Below are positions 7,387 to 27,047 of a DNA stretch of 64,000 nt, piece after piece. The DNA is from Pseudodesulfovibrio aespoeensis Aspo-2. Its GTDB lineage: Bacteria; Desulfobacterota; Desulfovibrionia; Desulfovibrionales; Desulfovibrionaceae. The stretch is from the NCBI RefSeq assembly GCF_000176915.2, contig NC_014844.1:2418001-2482000 (forward strand), written 5' to 3'. Below the pieces are notes generated by a model. That model saw only the letters and a program-made list of their open reading frames with translations, was not told where the DNA came from and ran no database searches. Numbering within the stretch: position 1 is the stretch's first letter; each line of letters starts with the position of its first letter. Both the position numbers and the translations under genes were made by a program.

Positions 7387-7455
7387 TGTCTCCGACGGCT
7401 GGGGGAAAACTCTTGGAAGAGTTTTCCCCCAGACCCCCTTTCAGAACTTTTTAGG
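7387..7455 (+). repeat. Intergenic hairpin repeat, copy C (after ahbD)
   Basis: The same layout as copy A: CTCCGACGG box, perfect 15-bp stem (7399-7413 with 7418-7432, loop TGGA), then a C-run and GAACTTTTTA tail. It begins directly at the ahbD stop and so probably forms the 3' end of the ahbC-hemB-ahbD message. Confidence 0.75.
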
Positions 7456-7612
7456 GCTCCGCCGCCTGAAAGGGAAAATGACAAAGGAAGACTGGATGGC
7501 GGCGGAGAGGGGCGCACGGACTCGGGAAGTCGCACCGCTCACTTGAGGAAAGAAGACGAAACGGCGCACACGGCATCCACAGGCTGGCAAGGTCGACCAG
7601 CGCCGTTTCACA

Positions 7613-7673
7613 CAAAAAGTTTTGGAGAGTCTAGAGAACCTTTTTCAAAAGGTTCTCTGACCACCGGAGGCAC
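7613..7673 (-). repeat. Intergenic hairpin repeat, copy D (inverted, before ahbA)
   Basis: Read on the minus strand it has the GTGCCTCCGG box, the stem (7633-7644 with 7647-7658) and the CTCCAAAACTTTTTG tail. Being inverted, it presents CCGGAGGCAC on the plus strand just upstream of the next gene, and GGAGG at 7666-7670 is well placed (9 bases) as Shine-Dalgarno for the ATG at 7680. The 157 bases between copies C and D hold no gene that I can see. Confidence 0.75.
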
Positions 7674-7679
7674 AACCCC

Positions 7680-8129
7680 ATGGACAGTTACGACAAGCGG
7701 ATACTCGACATCATCCAGTCCCATTTCCCCTTGGTTTCGCGGCCTTATGACGAGGTCGGAAGGCAGGTGGGGTTGAGCGGGGACGAGGTGCTGGTCAGGG
7801 TGCGGGAGATGAAGAAATCCGGGCTCATCCGCAGGATGGGGGCCAATTTCAACTCGCACACGCTGGGGTGGCAGTCCACGCTGTGCGCGGCCTCGGTGCC
7901 CGAGGACAGGCTCGACGCCTTCGTGGCCGAAGTGAACAAGCATGACGGCGTGACCCACAACTATCTGCGCGAGAACGAGTACAACGTCTGGTTCGCGCTC
8001 ATCGCGCCGGACATGGACGCGGTGGAGGCCATCCTCGCCTCCATCACCGAGGCCACGGGCATCAAAATCCTCAACCTTCCCGCCAGCACGCTGTTCAAGA
8101 TCAAGGTTGATTTCAAGATGGACAAATAG
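7680..8129 (+). CDS. ahbA: Siroheme decarboxylase subunit, AhbA/AhbB (NirDLGH-like, Lrp/AsnC fold)
   Basis: The 149-residue protein has an Lrp-like N-terminal helix-turn-helix (SYDKRILDIIQ ... GLIRRMGANFNSHTLGW) and a C-terminal RAM-like domain (VTHNYLRENEYNVWF), the layout of siroheme decarboxylases. AhbA and AhbB together remove the C12 and C18 acetate carboxyls of siroheme to give 12,18-didecarboxysiroheme, the substrate of AhbC. Proximity to ahbC, hemB and ahbD makes an enzyme more likely than a DNA-binding regulator. I favour AhbA over AhbB from the STLCAASVPED and THNYLR patterns, from memory only. The partner subunit is not in this window. The ribosome binding site seems to come from repeat copy D. 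Confidence 0.75.
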   Translation: MDSYDKRILDIIQSHFPLVSRPYDEVGRQVGLSGDEVLVRVREMKKSGLIRRMGANFNSHTLGWQSTLCAASVPEDRLDAFVAEVNKHDGVTHNYLRENEYNVWFALIAPDMDAVEAILASITEATGIKILNLPASTLFKIKVDFKMDK

Positions 8130-8154
8130 GCGGAACTTGGGCAACAGGGGAAAC

Positions 8155-8490
8155 ATGGACATTTTCATCAAGGCCCTGCTGCTCGGCATTGCCGCCGGGA
8201 TCATCGATGTCATCCCGCTGGTCTTCCAGGGATCGGGCTGGCAGATCTGCATCGCCACCCTGCTGCGCTGGCTGGGGCTTGGCATGATCATCACCTACGC
8301 CAGGATGCCCTTTGTAGGATGGCTCTCCGGGTTGCTCGTCGGGCTGCTCACGGGCATCCCCTTTGCCGTTCTCGCCTCAGAGGCCGCGCCTGCTACGGTG
8401 GTCCCGCTCCTGCTCACATCCCTGGTGCTGGGCGGCCTGCTGGGCCTTGCCGCGGACAAGCTCATCACCAGCCAGCCCAGGCGGAGATAA
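8155..8490 (+). CDS. Small integral membrane protein, unknown function
   Basis: A 111-residue hydrophobic protein with three or four transmembrane segments (IKALLLGIAAGIIDVIPLV, a central LLRWLGLGMIITYA, then GWLSGLLVGLLTG and LLLTSLVLGGLLGLA) and a short basic C-terminus. The start at 8155 has AGGGG four bases upstream. An in-frame ATG at 8107 would lie inside the preceding gene and add a charged leader, so I reject it. It begins 25 bases after the siroheme decarboxylase gene and may share its message. No family is recognised. Confidence 0.7.
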   Translation: MDIFIKALLLGIAAGIIDVIPLVFQGSGWQICIATLLRWLGLGMIITYARMPFVGWLSGLLVGLLTGIPFAVLASEAAPATVVPLLLTSLVLGGLLGLAADKLITSQPRRR

Positions 8491-8589
8491 CCGCGCCGGG
8501 CCGGGAAGAAGCGGGTCGAAAAACTTGCGCATCCGGGGCGGAGCGGGTACACCTCTCCCAGCAGACAATCCCTACCCGGAGCGAGCGCC

Positions 8590-9240
8590 ATGATCCTTTC
8601 CCCTTCCATGCTGTCCTCGGATTTCGCCAACCTGCAATCCGAGCTGGCGGCCCTGAAACAGGCGGGCCTCACGTGGGTCCACCTGGATGTCATGGATGGC
8701 ATGTTTGTGCCCAACATCACCTTTGGCCCGCCCATCATCAAGGCCATGCGCGCCCGGTCGGACCTGTTCTTTGACTGCCACCTGATGATCCGCGAGCCGG
8801 GCCGCTACATCCGCGATTTCGCCGATGCCGGAGCCGATCTCATCTGCGTCCACGCCGAGGCGTGCGACCACCTGGAACGCGTCTGCGCCCAGATCGCCGA
8901 GACCGGAGCCAAGCCCGCCGTGGCCCTCAACCCGCACACCCCGCTTGATGTCCTGCGCTATCTCATCCCGCAGCTTTCCATGGTCCTGATCATGTCCGTG
9001 AACCCCGGCTTCGGCGGCCAGAAATTCATCCCCTTTTGTATGGACAAGGTCCGCGAGCTCAAGGGCATGATCACCGCCGCCGGGAGCGGCACGCTCATCC
9101 AGGTGGACGGCGGCGTGACCCTCGACAATGCCCGCGAACTGGTCGAGGCGGGCGCGGACGTGCTGGTCTCCGGCTCGGCCTTTTTCGGCCACCCGCCCTA
9201 CGATGTGCGGCACAGGGCGTTCCAGGACGCCTGCAAGTAA
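8590..9240 (+). CDS. rpe: Ribulose-phosphate 3-epimerase
   Basis: A 216-residue TIM-barrel enzyme that interconverts ribulose 5-phosphate and xylulose 5-phosphate. It starts MILSPSMLSSDFANL with the catalytic Asp in HLDVMDGMFVPNI, a second metal/catalytic region FDCHLMI, the loop MSVNPGFGGQKFIP, and a second catalytic Asp in QVDGGV followed by a phosphate-binding GSAFF. GGAG lies 8 bases before the ATG. Length and motif order are normal. It serves the pentose phosphate pathway. It is followed 66 bases later by the ABC-F gene. Confidence 0.97.
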   Translation: MILSPSMLSSDFANLQSELAALKQAGLTWVHLDVMDGMFVPNITFGPPIIKAMRARSDLFFDCHLMIREPGRYIRDFADAGADLICVHAEACDHLERVCAQIAETGAKPAVALNPHTPLDVLRYLIPQLSMVLIMSVNPGFGGQKFIPFCMDKVRELKGMITAAGSGTLIQVDGGVTLDNARELVEAGADVLVSGSAFFGHPPYDVRHRAFQDACK

Positions 9241-20385: not shown

Positions 20386-21291
20386 ATGTCGGATACGCAA
20401 GGCAAGGGTTTGGCGCTGCTGGCGCTGCTGCTGGCAGTGACGCTCTGGGCCAGTTCGTTCATCGTGCTCAAGGTGGCCTTCACCCGGTTCGACCCCATGG
20501 TGGTCATCTTCGGACGCATGGCCGTGGCCTCCCTGTGCTTTCTCTTCGTCTTCCGGCGGCTGGTCCGGACCGTGGAATACCGGCCCGGCGACTGGAAACT
20601 GCTCCTGTTCATGGGCGTGTGCGAGCCGGGTCTCTACTTCATCTTCGAGGCCATGGCCCTGACCTACACCGACGCCTCCCAGGCGGGCATGATCTGCGCT
20701 CTGCTGCCCCTCATGGTGGCGCTTGGCGCGCGCTTCCACCTGGGCGAGCACACCTCGCGGCGCACCTTCGCGGGATTTGCCCTGGCCATTGTCGGCGCGG
20801 TGGCGCTGTCCGCCGCCGCCACGCCCAGCGCCACCGCGCCCAATCCCGCGCTGGGCAATTTTCTCGAATTCCTGGCCATGGTCTGCGCCACCGGCTACAT
20901 GGTCACCCTGAAGGGGCTCATGCCGCGCTACTCCCCCTGGTTCCTGACCATGATCCAGGCATTCATCGGCTCCATATTCTACTTCCCGCTGCTCTTCCTG
21001 CCGAGCACCGCCATGCCCACGACCTTCGATCCCCTCGGCATCGGCGCCATCCTCTTCCTCGGCGTGTTTGTGACCATCCTGGCCTACGGCTTCTACAACT
21101 TCGGCATGTCCAAGATCCCGGCCAGCCAGGCGTCCGCCTTTGTCAACCTGATCCCGGTCATCACCCTGGTCTTTGCCTGGTTCATGCTGGGCGAACGGCT
21201 CGCCCCGCTCCAATATGCGGCATCCGCCGTGGTCCTTACCGGGGTCTTTCTGAGTCAGGACCGGAAAGCGGCGCAACCGGCAACGGCCTGA
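20386..21291 (+). CDS. DMT/EamA family transporter
   Basis: A 301-residue membrane protein with ten predicted helices in two EamA repeats (first from about residue 8, second from about residue 150: NFLEFLAMVCATGYMVTLKG). The ends of the repeats carry the usual motif (FNLIPVITLVFAWFMLGERL). The substrate is unknown; relatives export amino acids, metabolites or drugs. AAGGA lies 8 bases before the ATG. Its last 56 bases overlap the 3' end of mqnD on the opposite strand. Confidence 0.9.
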   Translation: MSDTQGKGLALLALLLAVTLWASSFIVLKVAFTRFDPMVVIFGRMAVASLCFLFVFRRLVRTVEYRPGDWKLLLFMGVCEPGLYFIFEAMALTYTDASQAGMICALLPLMVALGARFHLGEHTSRRTFAGFALAIVGAVALSAAATPSATAPNPALGNFLEFLAMVCATGYMVTLKGLMPRYSPWFLTMIQAFIGSIFYFPLLFLPSTAMPTTFDPLGIGAILFLGVFVTILAYGFYNFGMSKIPASQASAFVNLIPVITLVFAWFMLGERLAPLQYAASAVVLTGVFLSQDRKAAQPATA

Positions 21292-22126
21292 GGAACACGG
21301 CCCGAAGCCGGTCCGGGTCCGCCCCGGGCATTGCCTCGGCCAGCAGCCGGGCCATGGCCCGCTCCCCGGCCTCGCCCACATCCAGGCTGTGGTCCGTGAC
21401 AAAGGTGCGGATGTGTTCCCGGATGATTGCCTCGTCCATCTCCTGGGCATGGCGCCTGATGTAGCCCCACGCCCCTTGCGAGTTTGCCAGCGCCGCCAGC
21501 AGGCTTTGGCGGATCGCCGTGTTCATGGTCTGCGCCGCTCCCTGGCCCAGCGACCGCCGCATGGCAATGGCCCCCAGCGGGATGGGCAGGCCTGTGTGCG
21601 CCTCCCACCACGCCCCCAAATCGAGGATGCGCGCCAGCCCATGCTCGCCGTAGGTGAACCGCCCCTCGTGGATGACCACGCCCGCGTCCGCCCGGCCTGC
21701 GGCCACGGCAGGCATGACCTGGTCAAAGACCATGGGCGCGAGCCGCACCGAGACCCCGGCCTCGCGGCAGCACAGGCCAAAGAGCAGGGCCGCCGTGGTC
21801 CGCTGGCCGGGAATGGCCACGGTCTTGCCGTCGAGCGCAGCCAGACCGCCAGCCCCGGCCCGGCCCACCAGCACCGGCCCGACCCCGTACCCCATGGCCC
21901 CACCGGCCCGCAGCAGCACATAGGCGTCCAGAATCCCGGCCACCGCCGCTGCCGAGACCTTGACCACGTCCAGCCGCCCCTCGCTGGCCATGGCGTTGAG
22001 TTCCTCCACATCGGCCAGGGTCACGTCCAGACCGCCGGGCCAGGGGATGGTCCCTGCGGCCAGTGCATGAAATATGAAGGTGTCGTTGGGGCAGGGCGAA
22101 AAGCCGATCCGAAGCGCGTCAGGCAT
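21236..22126 (-). CDS. mqnD: 1,4-dihydroxy-6-naphthoate synthase (MqnD)
   Basis: A 296-residue periplasmic-binding-protein-like enzyme. The N-terminal IGFSPCPNDTFIFHAL is the family signature; further conserved parts are DVVKVSAAA, GYGVGPVLV and DAGVVIHEGRFTY. MqnD converts cyclic dehypoxanthine futalosine to 1,4-dihydroxy-6-naphthoate in the futalosine menaquinone route. mqnE, mqnC and mqnA lie on the other side of a shared control region, divergently oriented. GAGGG lies 5 bases before the ATG. The 3' end overlaps the DMT transporter gene by 56 bases. Confidence 0.93.
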   Translation of the reverse strand: MPDALRIGFSPCPNDTFIFHALAAGTIPWPGGLDVTLADVEELNAMASEGRLDVVKVSAAAVAGILDAYVLLRAGGAMGYGVGPVLVGRAGAGGLAALDGKTVAIPGQRTTAALLFGLCCREAGVSVRLAPMVFDQVMPAVAAGRADAGVVIHEGRFTYGEHGLARILDLGAWWEAHTGLPIPLGAIAMRRSLGQGAAQTMNTAIRQSLLAALANSQGAWGYIRRHAQEMDEAIIREHIRTFVTDHSLDVGEAGERAMARLLAEAMPGADPDRLRAVFLRPLPVAPLSGPDSERPR

Positions 22127-22162: not shown

Positions 22163-22212
22163 TTGACAGGCCACCATGCCGGAGATACACATGGTGACCA
22201 CCTGGTCACCAT
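22163..22212 (+). promoter_or_regulatory. tetR-mqn promoter with perfect palindromic operator
   Basis: A TTGACA (22163-22168) stands 17 bases before TACACA (22186-22191). Immediately after, ATGGTGACC (22191-22199) and GGTCACCAT (22204-22212) form a perfect 9+9 inverted repeat with a 4-base spacer, covering the expected transcription start and ending 36 bases before the tetR ATG. This is the usual form and place of a TetR-family operator. The -10 match is poor, so the palindrome is more secure than the promoter. Confidence 0.65.
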
Positions 22213-22248: not shown

Positions 22249-22923
22249 ATGGGAATGTCGCCCAACACATTCGAGAACCTGCCGGACGACAAGCGCGAGC
22301 GCGTGCTGGCCGAGGCCGCCCGAGAGTTTGCAGACCACGGCTACCATCAGGCCAGCGTCAACCGCATGGTCGGGCGGCTGGGCATCGCCAAGGGGTCGAT
22401 CTTCAAGTATTTCGGCTCGAAGCAGGGAATCTTCGAATACCTTTTCGGCCAGACCGTGGCCGACTTCAAGAAACCCCTCAAGCAGATCAGGGACAGCGCG
22501 TCCGGCGACTTTTTCGAGCGCATCGGGCAGAGCCTGCTGGCCGGGGCCGAATTCATCACCGCCAATCCGCTCATCTACCGCATCTACCTGAAGATGGTCT
22601 ACCAGGAGGGGTTCCCCCTGCGCGACAGATTCCTGGGCGAGATCAGGCAGGCTTCGGACAAGTACCTGCGCGGGCTGGTCACAGACGCCATGGCAACAGG
22701 CCAGCTGAGACCCGGCATCGACGCGGACATGGCCGTCCATCACCTGGACGCGGTCATGGACCGCTTCCTCCAGGCCTGCGCCATCCCGGCCCTGAACGCC
22801 AGGGGCGCGTCCCCTGGCAACACCCCGGACGCCCTCAGGACCAGAGCCGAAGCCGTGGTCGATTTCCTGCGCCATGGGCTCGGCGCGCACACCCAAACCC
22901 CGGAACACCAATGCAGATCCTGA
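22249..22923 (+). CDS. TetR/AcrR family transcriptional regulator in the mqn operon
   Basis: A 224-residue regulator. Residues about 12-60 form the TetR helix-turn-helix (RVLAEAAREFADHGYHQASV ... GIAKGSIFKYFGSKQGIFEY). The C-terminal ligand domain is not similar to any group I recognise. AAGGA precedes the ATG. Its stop codon lies inside mqnE: the two genes overlap by 13 bases, so translation is probably coupled. A perfect palindrome just upstream is a likely binding site, suggesting that it represses its own operon, and possibly mqnD. What ligand it senses is unknown. Confidence 0.92.
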   Translation: MGMSPNTFENLPDDKRERVLAEAAREFADHGYHQASVNRMVGRLGIAKGSIFKYFGSKQGIFEYLFGQTVADFKKPLKQIRDSASGDFFERIGQSLLAGAEFITANPLIYRIYLKMVYQEGFPLRDRFLGEIRQASDKYLRGLVTDAMATGQLRPGIDADMAVHHLDAVMDRFLQACAIPALNARGASPGNTPDALRTRAEAVVDFLRHGLGAHTQTPEHQCRS

Positions 22924-24005
22924 AAAGCGATTTCTTCGACAACATGGGACTTGGCGACATCCGCACCAAGGTCGCCAACCGTGAGCGGCTGACCTTTGAC
23001 GACGGCATGCGCCTGTTTAACTGCCCGGAGCCCCTGGCCGTGGGCGCGCTGGCCCAGCAGGTGCGCGCCCGGCTGCATGGCGACAAGGCGTTCTATGTGG
23101 TCAACCGCCACATCAATTACACCAACATCTGCGTCAACGGCTGCGCCTTCTGCGCCTACCAGCGCGAGGAAGGCCAGCCCGGCGGCTTTGTCCTCTCCCT
23201 GGACGAAGCGCTGGCCCGCATCGACGCCTCGCCGCTCCCACCCCGCGAGATCCACATTGTGGGCGGCTGCCATCCCCGCCTTGGCCTCGACTACTTTGAG
23301 GCCCTGCTCCAGGCCATCCGCCAGCGGCTGCCCGAGGCCGTGCTCAAGTGTTTCACCGCCGTGGAGATCGCCCATTTCGCCCGTCTCGAAAACATCGCCA
23401 CCCGCGAGGTGCTTGAGCGCCTTCAGGCCGCCGGGCTGGGCATGCTCCCTGGCGGCGGGGCCGAGATATTCGCCCCAGCCGTGCGCGAGCGCATCTGTCC
23501 GCGCAAGTCCACCGCCGACCAGTGGCTCGCCATCCACGAAGAGGCCCACGCTCTGGGCATCAAGACCAACTGCACCATGCTCTTCGGCCACATCGAGGCG
23601 CGCGCCGACCGCATCGATCACCTCATCCGGCTGCGCGAGAGCCAGGACCGCAGCCACGGCTACACCTGCTTCATCCCCCTGCCCTTCCTGACCGAAAACA
23701 GCACATTGACCATCGACAAGCCCCTGACCGGCCTTGAGGAGCTGCGGACCATCGCCATCAGCCGGTTGATGCTCGACAACATCCCGCACATCAAGGCCTA
23801 CTGGGTCATGCTCGGTGTCAAGCAGGCCCAGGCCGCGCTCAAATTCGGGGCCGACGATTTCGACGGCACCGTGGTCGAGGAAAAAATCGGCCACGAGGCC
23901 GGGGCCACCAGCGAACAGGGACTGACCCGCGCCGGGCTCGAAGCCATGATCCGGGGCTGCGGCTGCACCCCCATCGAACGGGATGCGTATTTCAACGAGG
24001 TATAG
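22911..24005 (+). CDS. mqnE: Aminodeoxyfutalosine synthase (radical SAM, MqnE)
   Basis: A 364-residue radical SAM enzyme with C74, C78 and C81 (NYTNICVNGCAFCAY). It joins a SAM-derived 5'-deoxyadenosyl radical to 3-[(1-carboxyvinyl)oxy]benzoate to form aminofutalosine. MqnE and MqnC are close paralogues; this one carries the HIVGGCHPRLGLDYFE and GMLPGGGAEIF segments and the FCAYQREEGQPGG form, which fit MqnE. The start at 22911 overlaps tetR by 13 bases; a longer open frame back to 22176 is an artefact of reading through tetR in another frame. mqnC follows after repeat copy B. Confidence 0.93.
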   Translation: MQILKSDFFDNMGLGDIRTKVANRERLTFDDGMRLFNCPEPLAVGALAQQVRARLHGDKAFYVVNRHINYTNICVNGCAFCAYQREEGQPGGFVLSLDEALARIDASPLPPREIHIVGGCHPRLGLDYFEALLQAIRQRLPEAVLKCFTAVEIAHFARLENIATREVLERLQAAGLGMLPGGGAEIFAPAVRERICPRKSTADQWLAIHEEAHALGIKTNCTMLFGHIEARADRIDHLIRLRESQDRSHGYTCFIPLPFLTENSTLTIDKPLTGLEELRTIAISRLMLDNIPHIKAYWVMLGVKQAQAALKFGADDFDGTVVEEKIGHEAGATSEQGLTRAGLEAMIRGCGCTPIERDAYFNEV

Positions 24006-24116
24006 GAGTGCCTCCGGCGGCCAGGGGGAAGGGAAGGGGGAAACCCTTTGAAAAGGGCTCTCCCCCTTCCCTTCCCCCTGGATCCCCATCCCATCCCCTT
24101 TCCCAAACTTTTTGGC
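24005..24116 (+). repeat. Intergenic hairpin repeat, copy B (mqnE-mqnC gap)
   Basis: GTGCCTCCGGCGG box, a perfect 21-bp stem (24021-24041 with 24061-24081), an inner ACCCTTT/AAAGGG stem and an AAACTTTTTGGCGG tail, in the same order as copy A. It starts at the mqnE stop codon and ends about 34 bases before the mqnC ATG, inside an otherwise tight operon. Confidence 0.8.
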
Positions 24117-24149
24117 GGGGGGGGGGTGAAGGAGAACGAGAAGAAAGGA

Positions 24150-25223
24150 ATGAAAGTGATAGAGAGAATTTTCAAGAAGGTTCTGGATGGGGAGCGGATC
24201 GGGGCGGACGAGGCCATGATTCTGCATGATCACGCGGAGCTGGCCGACCTGGGGTGGCTGGCCCACCGGGTGCGGCTGACCAAGCATCCCGAGCCGGTGG
24301 TCACCTATGTGGTGGATCGCAATATAAATTATTCAAACATCTGCGTGTGCTGCTGCAAGTTTTGCGCGTTCTACCGCGAGCCGGGGCAGGAGGGCGGATA
24401 TGTGCTCTCGCTGGACGAGATCAGCCGCAAGATAGAGGAGACCCTCGCCCTGGGCGGCACGCAGATCCTCATGCAGGGCGGACATCATCCGCATCTGCCT
24501 CTGTCCTGGTATGAGTCGATGCTGGCCCATATCAAGGCCAACCACGACATCCACATCCACGCCTTTTCGCCGCCGGAGATCGTCTTCTGGAGCGAGCTTG
24601 AGCACATCCCGGTGGCCGAGGTCATCGCCCGGCTGCGTAAGGCAGGGCTCGATTCCATCCCCGGCGGCGGGGCCGAGATCCTGGTGGACGAAGTTCGCTC
24701 GCGGGTCGCGCCCAACAAGTGCCCGGCCCGACAGTGGCTGGCGGTCATGGAGGAAGCCCACGCCCAGGGGTTGCGCACCACCGCCACCATGATGTTCGGC
24801 CACCTGGAGACCGTCAAACAGCGCGTGGAGCACATGCTGGCCGTGCGCGACAGCCAGGACCGCACCGGCGGATTCACGGCCTTCATCCCCTGGACCTTCC
24901 AGCCGGACAGCACCGGGCTGGCCCACTGCCGCAAGCTGACCAGCGTCGAATATCTGCGCACCCTGGCCCTCTCGCGCATCCTGCTCGACAACGTGGACAA
25001 CATCCAGGTCTCCTGGGTGACCATGGGGCCAAAGATCGCCCAGCTCGCCCTCTTCTTCGGCGGCAACGACTTCGGCTCGACCATGATCGAGGAGAACGTG
25101 GTCAGGGCCGCCGGGGTCTCCTTCAGCCTCTCGCGCAACGAGATCCACCGCCTCATTGAGGACGCGGGGTTCGCTCCCAGACAGCGGACCATGACCTATG
25201 GGCTGGTGGAGGCCCGGCCATGA
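24150..25223 (+). CDS. mqnC: Cyclic dehypoxanthine futalosine synthase (radical SAM, MqnC)
   Basis: A 357-residue radical SAM enzyme with C65, C69 and C72 (NYSNICVCCCKFCAFYR), plus two extra Cys at 67 and 68 within the motif. It cyclises dehypoxanthine futalosine. The segments LMQGGHHPHLPLSWYE, DSIPGGGAEILV and FIPWTFQPDST are typical of MqnC. The ATG at 24150 has GGAG about 15 bases and AAAGG one base upstream, neither ideal; a GTG at 24126 in the same frame is the alternative. It overlaps mqnA by 4 bases (ATGA). Confidence 0.93.
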   Translation: MKVIERIFKKVLDGERIGADEAMILHDHAELADLGWLAHRVRLTKHPEPVVTYVVDRNINYSNICVCCCKFCAFYREPGQEGGYVLSLDEISRKIEETLALGGTQILMQGGHHPHLPLSWYESMLAHIKANHDIHIHAFSPPEIVFWSELEHIPVAEVIARLRKAGLDSIPGGGAEILVDEVRSRVAPNKCPARQWLAVMEEAHAQGLRTTATMMFGHLETVKQRVEHMLAVRDSQDRTGGFTAFIPWTFQPDSTGLAHCRKLTSVEYLRTLALSRILLDNVDNIQVSWVTMGPKIAQLALFFGGNDFGSTMIEENVVRAAGVSFSLSRNEIHRLIEDAGFAPRQRTMTYGLVEARP

Positions 25224-26041
25224 CCGTGCGCATCGGCAAGATCGGCTACCTCAACGTCCTGCCCATCTACCATCCCATCGAGTCCGGGATCATCGGCCAC
25301 GGCTTCTCCATCGTCTCCGGGCCGCCCTCGGCCCTGAACCGGCTCATGGACGCGGGCCAGCTCGACATCTCCGCTGCATCAAGCATCGAATACGCGCGCC
25401 ATCCGGAAAAATACTACCTCGTGCCGGACATCGCCATCGGCAGCCGAGGCCCGGTGCAGAGCGTGCTGCTCCTCAGCCGCTGCCCGGTCGAGGAACTGCA
25501 CGGCCAGACCATCGTGGTCAGCGCGCAGACGCACACCTCGGCTGCCCTGCTGCGCGTCCTGCTGGCCGAGTGGCAGATCGAGCCGACCTTTGTCACCGGG
25601 GACGCCACGGCCATGCTCTCGACCGGCCACAGACCCCAGGCCATTTTGTGCATCGGAGACGAGGCGCTCAACCTGCGCTTTCACCCCGACTACCCGGTGC
25701 GCACCGACCTCGGCGAGGCGTGGCGCAACCTGACCGGGCTGCCTTTCATCTTCGGCGTCTGGATCGTGCAGCGCACCAGCTTTGAGCGCAACGGTCCGGC
25801 CATCAGGCAGGCCTGCGCCGCCCTGCTCGCGGCCAAATGCTGGGGCGAGTCCAATATTGCAGCCATGTGCGCCCTGGCCGCAGAGAGCAGTTGTCTGAGC
25901 CAGGCGGAAATGTGCTCGTACTTTGACGGGCTGGTCTATGACCTCGGTCCCGAGGAAATTGCTGGCATGACCCTCTTCTACCAGCGGCTGGCGCATAACG
26001 GCTTCATCGACGCGGTCCCTGCGCTGCATTTTCTCCCGTAA
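25220..26041 (+). CDS. mqnA: Chorismate dehydratase (MqnA)
   Basis: The 273-residue enzyme converts chorismate to 3-[(1-carboxyvinyl)oxy]benzoate, the first futalosine-pathway step. It starts RIGKIGYLNVLPIYHPIE, the family signature; DISAASSIEYARHPEKY and GDEALNLRF are further conserved parts of the periplasmic-binding-like fold. The ATG overlaps the mqnC stop (ATGA), so the two are translationally coupled. With mqnC, mqnD and mqnE this gives four pathway enzymes; the futalosine hydrolase step (mqnB) is not encoded here. Confidence 0.93.
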   Translation: MTVRIGKIGYLNVLPIYHPIESGIIGHGFSIVSGPPSALNRLMDAGQLDISAASSIEYARHPEKYYLVPDIAIGSRGPVQSVLLLSRCPVEELHGQTIVVSAQTHTSAALLRVLLAEWQIEPTFVTGDATAMLSTGHRPQAILCIGDEALNLRFHPDYPVRTDLGEAWRNLTGLPFIFGVWIVQRTSFERNGPAIRQACAALLAAKCWGESNIAAMCALAAESSCLSQAEMCSYFDGLVYDLGPEEIAGMTLFYQRLAHNGFIDAVPALHFLP

Positions 26042-26112: not shown

Positions 26113-27006
26113 CTACCGGCTCAGGCAAAAATCCACAAACGCCTTGTACGCCGGGAACATCTGACGGCCCTTGTGATAGATGAGGTGGAACCGGCGGCGG
26201 CCCATCAGCTCGGGCACGTCGAGACGCACCAGGGCTCCGCTTTCCACCAGCTGCCGGGTGGCCAGTTCCGAGGTCACGCTGAGGCCCACGCCGCTCAGGA
26301 CATGGGCAACCGCCTCGCAAGTGCCATCGACCCAACAGCGGACATTGATATCCTGCAAGCTCAGACCGATGCGACCCAGTGTATCCTCAAGGGCTTGCCG
26401 GGTAGCGGACCCTCTCTCGCGCATGACCCAGGGCAGCAGGGCCAATTGGCTGACAGGCACCGGCCCGGAGGAACGCGGCAACCAGGACGCGCCGCGAGAG
26501 GCCACGACCACGGTTTCGTCCTCAAGAAGCGCGTGCGCGGCCAGATCCTCGCCCTCCGGCTTGTGGCCGACAATACCCACCGGCCACTGGCCCTCCGTCA
26601 CCTTGGCGATGACATCGCCGGAGTCGCTGGTATGCACAGTGAACGAGACCTGGGAATACTGCGCGCCAAAGACGGCCAAGTATTCCGGCAGCATGTGGTG
26701 GGCCGGAATGGTGCTGCACCCGATGACCAGCTCGCCCGCGACCGTGTCGCGCAGCACCTCAATGGAGGTCCGGGCCTGCTTGACGTTCTCGAAGATCGCC
26801 ACCGCGCTGCGGTACAGGATTTCCCCGGCCTGGGTGGGAATGACTCTGCGCCCGAGACGGTCAAAGAGCTTAACCCCAAGCTCGGCTTCCAGATTGGCGA
26901 CATGGGAGCTGATGGTCGGCTGCGAAAGGTACATCACTTCGCCAGCCTTGGAAAAATTCTGCAACTCGTAGACATTGTAAAACGCTTCGAGTTTACGGAT
27001 GTCCAT
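26113..27006 (-). CDS. LysR family transcriptional regulator
   Basis: A 297-residue LysR regulator. Residues 1-60 hold the winged helix-turn-helix (MDIRKLEAFYNVYELQNFSK ... YLSQPTISSHVANLEAELG), and the C-terminal part is the two-lobed effector domain (VGIVGHKPEGEDLAAHALLED). ATG at 27006 has a GGGGGG purine run upstream; an extra 8 residues from 27030 are unlikely. The N-terminus resembles LysR proteins that sit near selenium or sulfur genes in Desulfovibrio, but that link is from memory and there is no such gene here. Its target cannot be named. Confidence 0.9.
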   Translation of the reverse strand: MDIRKLEAFYNVYELQNFSKAGEVMYLSQPTISSHVANLEAELGVKLFDRLGRRVIPTQAGEILYRSAVAIFENVKQARTSIEVLRDTVAGELVIGCSTIPAHHMLPEYLAVFGAQYSQVSFTVHTSDSGDVIAKVTEGQWPVGIVGHKPEGEDLAAHALLEDETVVVASRGASWLPRSSGPVPVSQLALLPWVMRERGSATRQALEDTLGRIGLSLQDINVRCWVDGTCEAVAHVLSGVGLSVTSELATRQLVESGALVRLDVPELMGRRRFHLIYHKGRQMFPAYKAFVDFCLSR

Positions 27007-27047
27007 ATGGCCCCCCCTGTCTGCAATCAAGACAGCCTCTGGCTGAC

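Follow-up and report, generated by a model that had tools for sequence, protein, structure and literature searches.

The genes for the futalosine route to menaquinone, the respiratory quinone of these anaerobes, are headed in Pseudodesulfovibrio aespoeensis Aspo-2 by a gene for a TetR-family protein. This protein is very probably a local regulator of the pathway, because the pairing of its gene with a palindrome recurs beside mqn genes in many relatives. Judged from the sequence, we predict with a probability of roughly 87% that it is a repressor dedicated to futalosine-route menaquinone synthesis, which would regulate its own gene via the palindrome, control the operon, and respond to a ligand. 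The best reading of the wider comparison would be a TetR-family autorepressor of futalosine-pathway genes that occurs Desulfobacterota-wide.

Organization of the tetR-mqn locus

The features of the locus within the window, i.e. the whole stretch of 64,000 nucleotides that was analyzed, are compiled in Table 1. A preliminary description of this DNA had reported that tetR overlaps mqnE by 13 nt and that mqnD diverges from the same region. The coordinates agree with the overlap, and mqnD was indeed located on the minus strand with its start 64 nt from the palindrome. A further overlap, of 4 nt, is present between mqnC and mqnA. The names mqnA and mqnD follow operon position and the labels of the preliminary description, as neither protein had an NCBIfam match. 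Membership of the regulator in the TetR family is evident from its helix-turn-helix domain (PF00440, 48.5 bits, above the Pfam cut-off of 24), and the predicted model (pLDDT 91.1; Z 18.6 to 3nrg) is consistent with the all-helical two-domain fold of the family.

Table 1. Features of the tetR-mqn locus (positions refer to the window)
Feature	Position	Strand	Evidence
mqnD, VitK2_biosynth family, divergent	21236..22126	-	Pfam PF02621 3.9e-74
TTGACA, putative -35 of tetR-mqnE promoter	22163..22168	+	conserved spacing to core
GATACACA, weak -10-like stretch just 5' of core	22184..22191	+	weak match
Predicted palindromic operator ATGGTGACCACCTGGTCACCAT	22191..22212	.	core GTGACCANNTGGTCAC at 22194-22209
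TetR-family regulator gene, 224 aa	22249..22923	+	Pfam TetR_N E 7e-13; AlphaFold pLDDT 91
mqnE, aminofutalosine synthase	22911..24005	+	NCBIfam TIGR03700 483 bits, cut-off 435
mqnC, cyclic dehypoxanthinyl futalosine synthase	24150..25223	+	NCBIfam TIGR03699 500 bits, cut-off 428
mqnA, VitK2_biosynth family	25220..26041	+	Pfam PF02621 6.8e-65

The predicted operator and its promoter context

The palindrome upstream of tetR reads ATGGTGACCA-CC-TGGTCACCAT. The perfect inverted repeat of the preliminary description was thus found, with arms of 10+10 bp around a 2-nt centre rather than of 9+9 bp. TetR dimers bind such palindromes, mostly as repressors. At up to 3 mismatches the 22-mer palindrome pattern had a single match in the window (expected 0.03), and the core GTGACCANNTGGTCAC was matched exactly once in the genome (3.63 Mb, one contig), with no site at 1 mismatch; 17 other places in the genome matched at 2 mismatches, compared with 6 for a reversed control pattern. 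A second half-site taken from repeat I12 was discarded, since it was not conserved among relatives when compared by eye.

All 35 genus loci have TTGACA 23-29 nt 5' of the core, 28 of them at exactly 25 nt; this count admitted only loci with both motif and TTGACA, and all 35 loci offered passed. The conserved spacing implies that the transcription start would fall inside the palindrome. The -10-like stretch is weak, and a sigma-70 scan returned no canonical promoter by its own criteria, so that the promoter was deduced from conservation. The earlier proposal that the palindrome covers the expected transcription start agrees with the start deduced from the TTGACA spacing and drew no support from the sigma-70 scan.

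Conservation in the genus and decay of the site in a genome lacking tetR

The genus comparison comprised 60 genomes, the window's own included. Full-length TetR orthologues were detected in 34 of the 35 other same-genus genomes (45-76% identity), and one orthologue at 40% identity was found in G037, a genome of another family. All of the resulting 36 tetR-mqnE pairs (the window's own, the 34, and that of G037) had the palindrome 5' of tetR, mqnE on the same strand 3' of tetR, and mqnD on the opposite strand; a palindromic operator at the regulated promoter, as expected of a TetR-family protein, is thereby predicted for each of them. Mismatches to the core numbered 0 in 25 pairs, 1 in 8, 2 in 2, and 3 in one (G037), and the palindrome was not missing beside any orthologous pair, so that the refuting condition set in the preliminary description did not arise. 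Eleven of the 16 core positions were invariant across the 35 genus loci. The degenerate motif RTGACCRNNYGGTCAY occurred in all 36 genus genomes, with exactly one match in 31, which in 30 of those 31 was the tetR-mqnE site; two sites each were present in G008, G013, G016, G018, and G023. These results support the interpretation given in the preliminary description, namely regulation at the mqn unit by tetR and the palindrome.

The sole same-genus genome without tetR (G028, 1 of 35) retains the lysR neighbour, mqnA, mqnC, mqnE, the divergent mqnD, and eamA in unchanged order. TTGACA and a -10-like stretch are still present in its mqnD-mqnE gap of 143 bp, as is the left half ATGGTGACCAC. The right half reads TTGCTGAATT, and the right half-site is TGCTGAAT instead of TGGTCACC. 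Decay of the right half with retention of the left suggests that the symmetry is kept with the regulator and lost without it, in line with the co-occurrence of palindrome and tetR that had been put forward as a check. The only RTGACCRNNYGGTCAY site of G028 lies inside reading frames, away from mqn genes. G028 can thus be regarded as a natural deletion with a decayed site; it represents one genome and one event, and the phylum-level tests below are independent of it. As a control, mqnE genes from genomes without a TetR orthologue were inspected (23 genes, one being that of G028 and 22 belonging to genomes of other families within the order). All 23 lacked the site in the 300 bp upstream, with best scores of at least 3 mismatches, the 3 mismatches of G028 being its decayed site.

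Additional sites in the genus

In three of the genomes with two sites, the second operator was situated no more than about 45 bp before a gene for a DhnA-class aldolase (G023:C1:804556, L084; G016:C3:303405, L085; G013:C3:17746, L087). The G023 protein scored 362 bits against an ADH synthase cut-off of 299. The other extra genus sites (G008 and G018) are found within reading frames or have unrelated genes as neighbours. The best counterparts of the aldolase gene in 27 other genus genomes, 26 of them beside the same HDOD gene, had no site (at least 5 mismatches). The best counterpart in the window genome (G000, C1:229420) was likewise without a site, and the aldolase copy of the aro operon, which also contains 3-dehydroquinate synthase II, prephenate dehydratase, and aroA, is a different gene. 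A regulon link to chorismate supply in the window genome was thus rejected, and the aldolase target is an extension in a subclade only.

TetR relatives across the phylum

From an alignment search with TetR, the best 80 of 156 relatives were taken. They stem from Pseudodesulfovibrio and other Desulfovibrionaceae, Syntrophobacteraceae with Desulfacinum and Desulforhabdus, Desulfarculales, Desulfobacterales, and unplaced MAGs. Start codons of the relatives were picked by script, and mqn labels were assigned by tblastn (E ≤1e-6), in which mqnE and mqnC as well as mqnA and mqnD cross-match. In 78 of the 80, the stretch around tetR contained an mqn match; in 64 this was to mqnE or to the homologous mqnC. 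The motif RTGACCRNNYGGTCAY was present within 250 bp upstream of tetR in 61 of the 80 (59 exact, 2 with one mismatch); at the same loci a reversed pattern gave 0, and 0.05 are expected from shuffles.

The 19 relatives without an upstream site are placed in a second branch of the TetR tree, often in the arrangement tetR-mqnB-mqnD (mqnB of L205 scored 155 bits against the futalosine hydrolase cut-off of 124.7). For TetRs lacking a site of their own, the prediction is that it precedes other mqn genes. The site was found between tetR and mqnD in three of the 19 (L200, L201, and L213). The remaining 16 genomes were searched for mqnE, which was detected in 12, and 11 of these 12 had an exact site within 300 bp upstream of it. 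The palindrome is thus mostly located before mqn genes when it is not before tetR, in agreement with the earlier suggestion that it would be found upstream of mqn genes in relatives. L284, L286, and L290 have a second site before mqnE, at one mismatch in L290. The genome of L208 contains TetR and mqnE without a site upstream, and the mqnE match begins at residue 54; G117 also has both and no site upstream of mqnE. Four of the 80 (L183, L194, L202, and L214) had neither an mqnE above the cut in the genome nor a site in the locus. No other palindrome shared among the 19 was seen. On a tree of 89 TetR sequences, the cis label must change 3 times; the root split is weakly supported (71/15), and several branches are long. 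At the level of sequence, the comparisons establish that the palindrome exists, is conserved, and depends on tetR, also where the two lie apart, and within a single phylum one regulon shifts from cis to trans arrangements or the reverse.

In Desulfacinum hydrothermale (L157), an amidohydrolase gene is inserted between mqnC and mqnA at 7428-8705; it matched aminofutalosine deaminase weakly (102 bits, cut-off 320).

The phylum genomes were also scanned for the motif without reference to TetR. It occurred in 37 of 118 genomes. The TetR profile (E <1e-55, the next matches being 1e-39 or weaker) was found in 22 of these 37, the window's own counted, and in 4 of the 81 without the exact motif (Fisher p 1.7e-10, not corrected for kinship). 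In 20 of the 22 genomes with both, a menaquinone gene is next to the site or to tetR, and in 19 the site adjoins tetR. In G074, G112, and G148, tetR is accompanied by mqnB and mqnD; mqnE is located elsewhere in the genome, behind two sites spaced 43-57 bp apart. Three of the four TetR genomes without the exact motif have a one-mismatch site (at tetR in G166 and G169, before mqnE in G079). Fifteen of the 37 motif genomes lack TetR; thus, some occurrences of the motif are due to chance or to use by others. In 13 of these 15 genomes (all but G126 and G145), one site each was inspected, the count excluding a second site in each of G085, G094, G144, and G164, and no mqn match was seen in the stretch of up to 1.5 kb on each side. 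In G066, a second site adjoins and precedes a gene for a menaquinone-biosynthesis decarboxylase (TIGR03701, 636 bits, cut-off 496), and G104 shows the same order with a UbiD-family gene.

In the other two of the 22 genomes, distant TetR relatives with the same operator (L264 and L265, in G098 and G161) overlap a gene for an NMT1/THI5-like substrate-binding protein in place of mqn genes. This neighbour is a possible hint to the ligand.

Relation to known regulators

With TetR-family autorepressors in general, the protein shares the N-terminal PF00440 domain, the all-helical ligand domain, and a palindrome at its own presumed promoter. It differs from them in its target, the futalosine menaquinone pathway, and in that some lineages have the site and the regulator gene at separate places. 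The best solved relative is 3NRG (Caur_2714, Chloroflexus aurantiacus), with a profile E-value of 2.4e-34 and a fold match of rmsd 3.6 over 210 aligned residues at 32% identity; its structure listing gives no function. The consensus bound by RutR of Escherichia coli, TTGACCANNTGGTCAA, is close to the operator described here, and the modeled fold resembles that of RutR (Z 16.4 to 4x1e); in contrast, sequence identity is 18%, and the neighbours here are mqn genes. The scores of 29.5 bits with the RutR model TIGR03613 (cut-off 368) and 34 bits with the Bacillus-type FadR model NF053878 (cut-off 200) place the protein in neither group. Comparison of the modeled fold did not narrow the ligand, as FadR, HapR, KstR2, RutR, and others score alike.

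Among the matches listed from the full-text literature on menaquinone or Desulfovibrio regulation and on RutR, none presents a regulator of the TetR family for the futalosine pathway in its title or the start of its abstract; PMC4746308 and PMC9927152 also entered this assessment. Subscription journals and database pages such as those of RegPrecise lay outside this scope, so that an earlier prediction may exist there. For Streptomyces sp. MNU77, expression of mqnA, mqnB, and mqnD is reported to drop in spores, and, in contrast to the case made here, the passages concerned name no regulator (PMC9927152). The kind of protein is ordinary; the pathway assignment and the phylum-wide support appear to be new.

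Proposed mechanism and alternative explanations

We propose that a TetR dimer would bind the RTGACC-N4-GGTCAY palindrome. The palindrome would overlap the start of the tetR-mqnE-mqnC-mqnA transcript, and bound TetR would block RNA polymerase; given the short distance from the -35-like hexamer to the core, the -10 and the start would lie under a bound dimer. Being first in the operon, tetR would be subject to its own repression, and TetR would control itself, the operon, and perhaps the divergent mqnD in the window genome; a site directly before mqnD occurs in the three distant loci named above. The affinity of TetR for DNA would be altered by a small molecule, for which a pathway intermediate, the quinone end product, or a chemically related compound is the most likely candidate. 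We infer here that TetR binds DNA and represses instead of activating, as well as the position of the transcription start and the ligand; ligand control and repression are suggested by analogy, from the TetR family and the position of the operator.

More tentatively, TetR might be a soluble sensor of menaquinone supply that binds a naphthoquinone-type product or a late futalosine intermediate (or responds to its redox state) and shuts down the pathway in much of the Desulfobacterota, the sites being in cis or in trans depending on the lineage. The regulon would then have been extended to a chorismate-precursor-type aldolase in one subclade of Pseudodesulfovibrio. We regard this fuller picture as possible and rather doubtful.

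It is unlikely that TetR instead activates at the site, or represses itself only while the mqn genes are transcribed mainly from other promoters. The TTGACA kept by G028 in the absence of tetR would also fit constitutive expression, but the location of the core downstream of the -35-like hexamer, at 23-29 nt in 35 of 35 loci, is that of a repressor site, and the sites before mqnE in 11 of 12 genomes with tetR elsewhere imply that control is not of tetR alone.

A regulator mainly of lipid or redox metabolism, FadR-like or other, with mqn as a side target, has still less to recommend it and is quite improbable. FadR-type acyl-CoA regulators rank high among the fold matches (Z 17-18, close to the top match 3nrg), a similarity that is unspecific within TetR proteins, and both the NMT1/THI5-like neighbour of two distant relatives and the second site at the aldolase gene in three genus genomes would accord with such a role. 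Against it stand the uniqueness of the window-genome site within 1 mismatch, the single RTGACCRNNYGGTCAY match of 31 of the 36 genus genomes, and the mqn genes around 78 of the 80 best relatives.

The notion that the palindrome acts as RNA, a hairpin in the tetR-mqnE leader (attenuator or riboswitch-like) without protein binding, is scarcely credible: the repeat is perfect, lies beside the start codon, and has an outer pair that occurs as A-T and as G-C in a survey of loci scored against GTGACCANNTGGTCAC, but the presumed start falls inside the repeat, a non-pairing A at position 1 with C at position 16 recurs (L145, L174, and L187), three genomes with tetR elsewhere have a pair of copies upstream of mqnE, spaced 43-57 bp apart, presence of the site tracks the tetR gene, and no Rfam match was obtained at the palindrome at E ≤1.

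For the preferred reading, a TetR-family repressor of the futalosine pathway, the conserved regulator and its sharply defined operator provide a handle, i.e. a 16-bp site with one predicted operon in the window genome.

Other elements of the locus

The spacer between mqnE and mqnC (24006-24149) contains a long GC-rich inverted repeat with arms at 24021-24040 and 24062-24081 and a G run, which is perhaps a repeat element. When the operator was considered as an RNA element, all 57 Rfam matches (E ≤1) fell on this hairpin region (23991-24159), below gathering scores and to microRNA-type families except for one viral RNA, and the candidate was rejected. Facing mqnA, a LysR gene is located on the minus strand at 26113-27030; its product scored 267 bits against a cut-off of 250 with the NCBIfam model for selenium-metabolism-associated LysR proteins.
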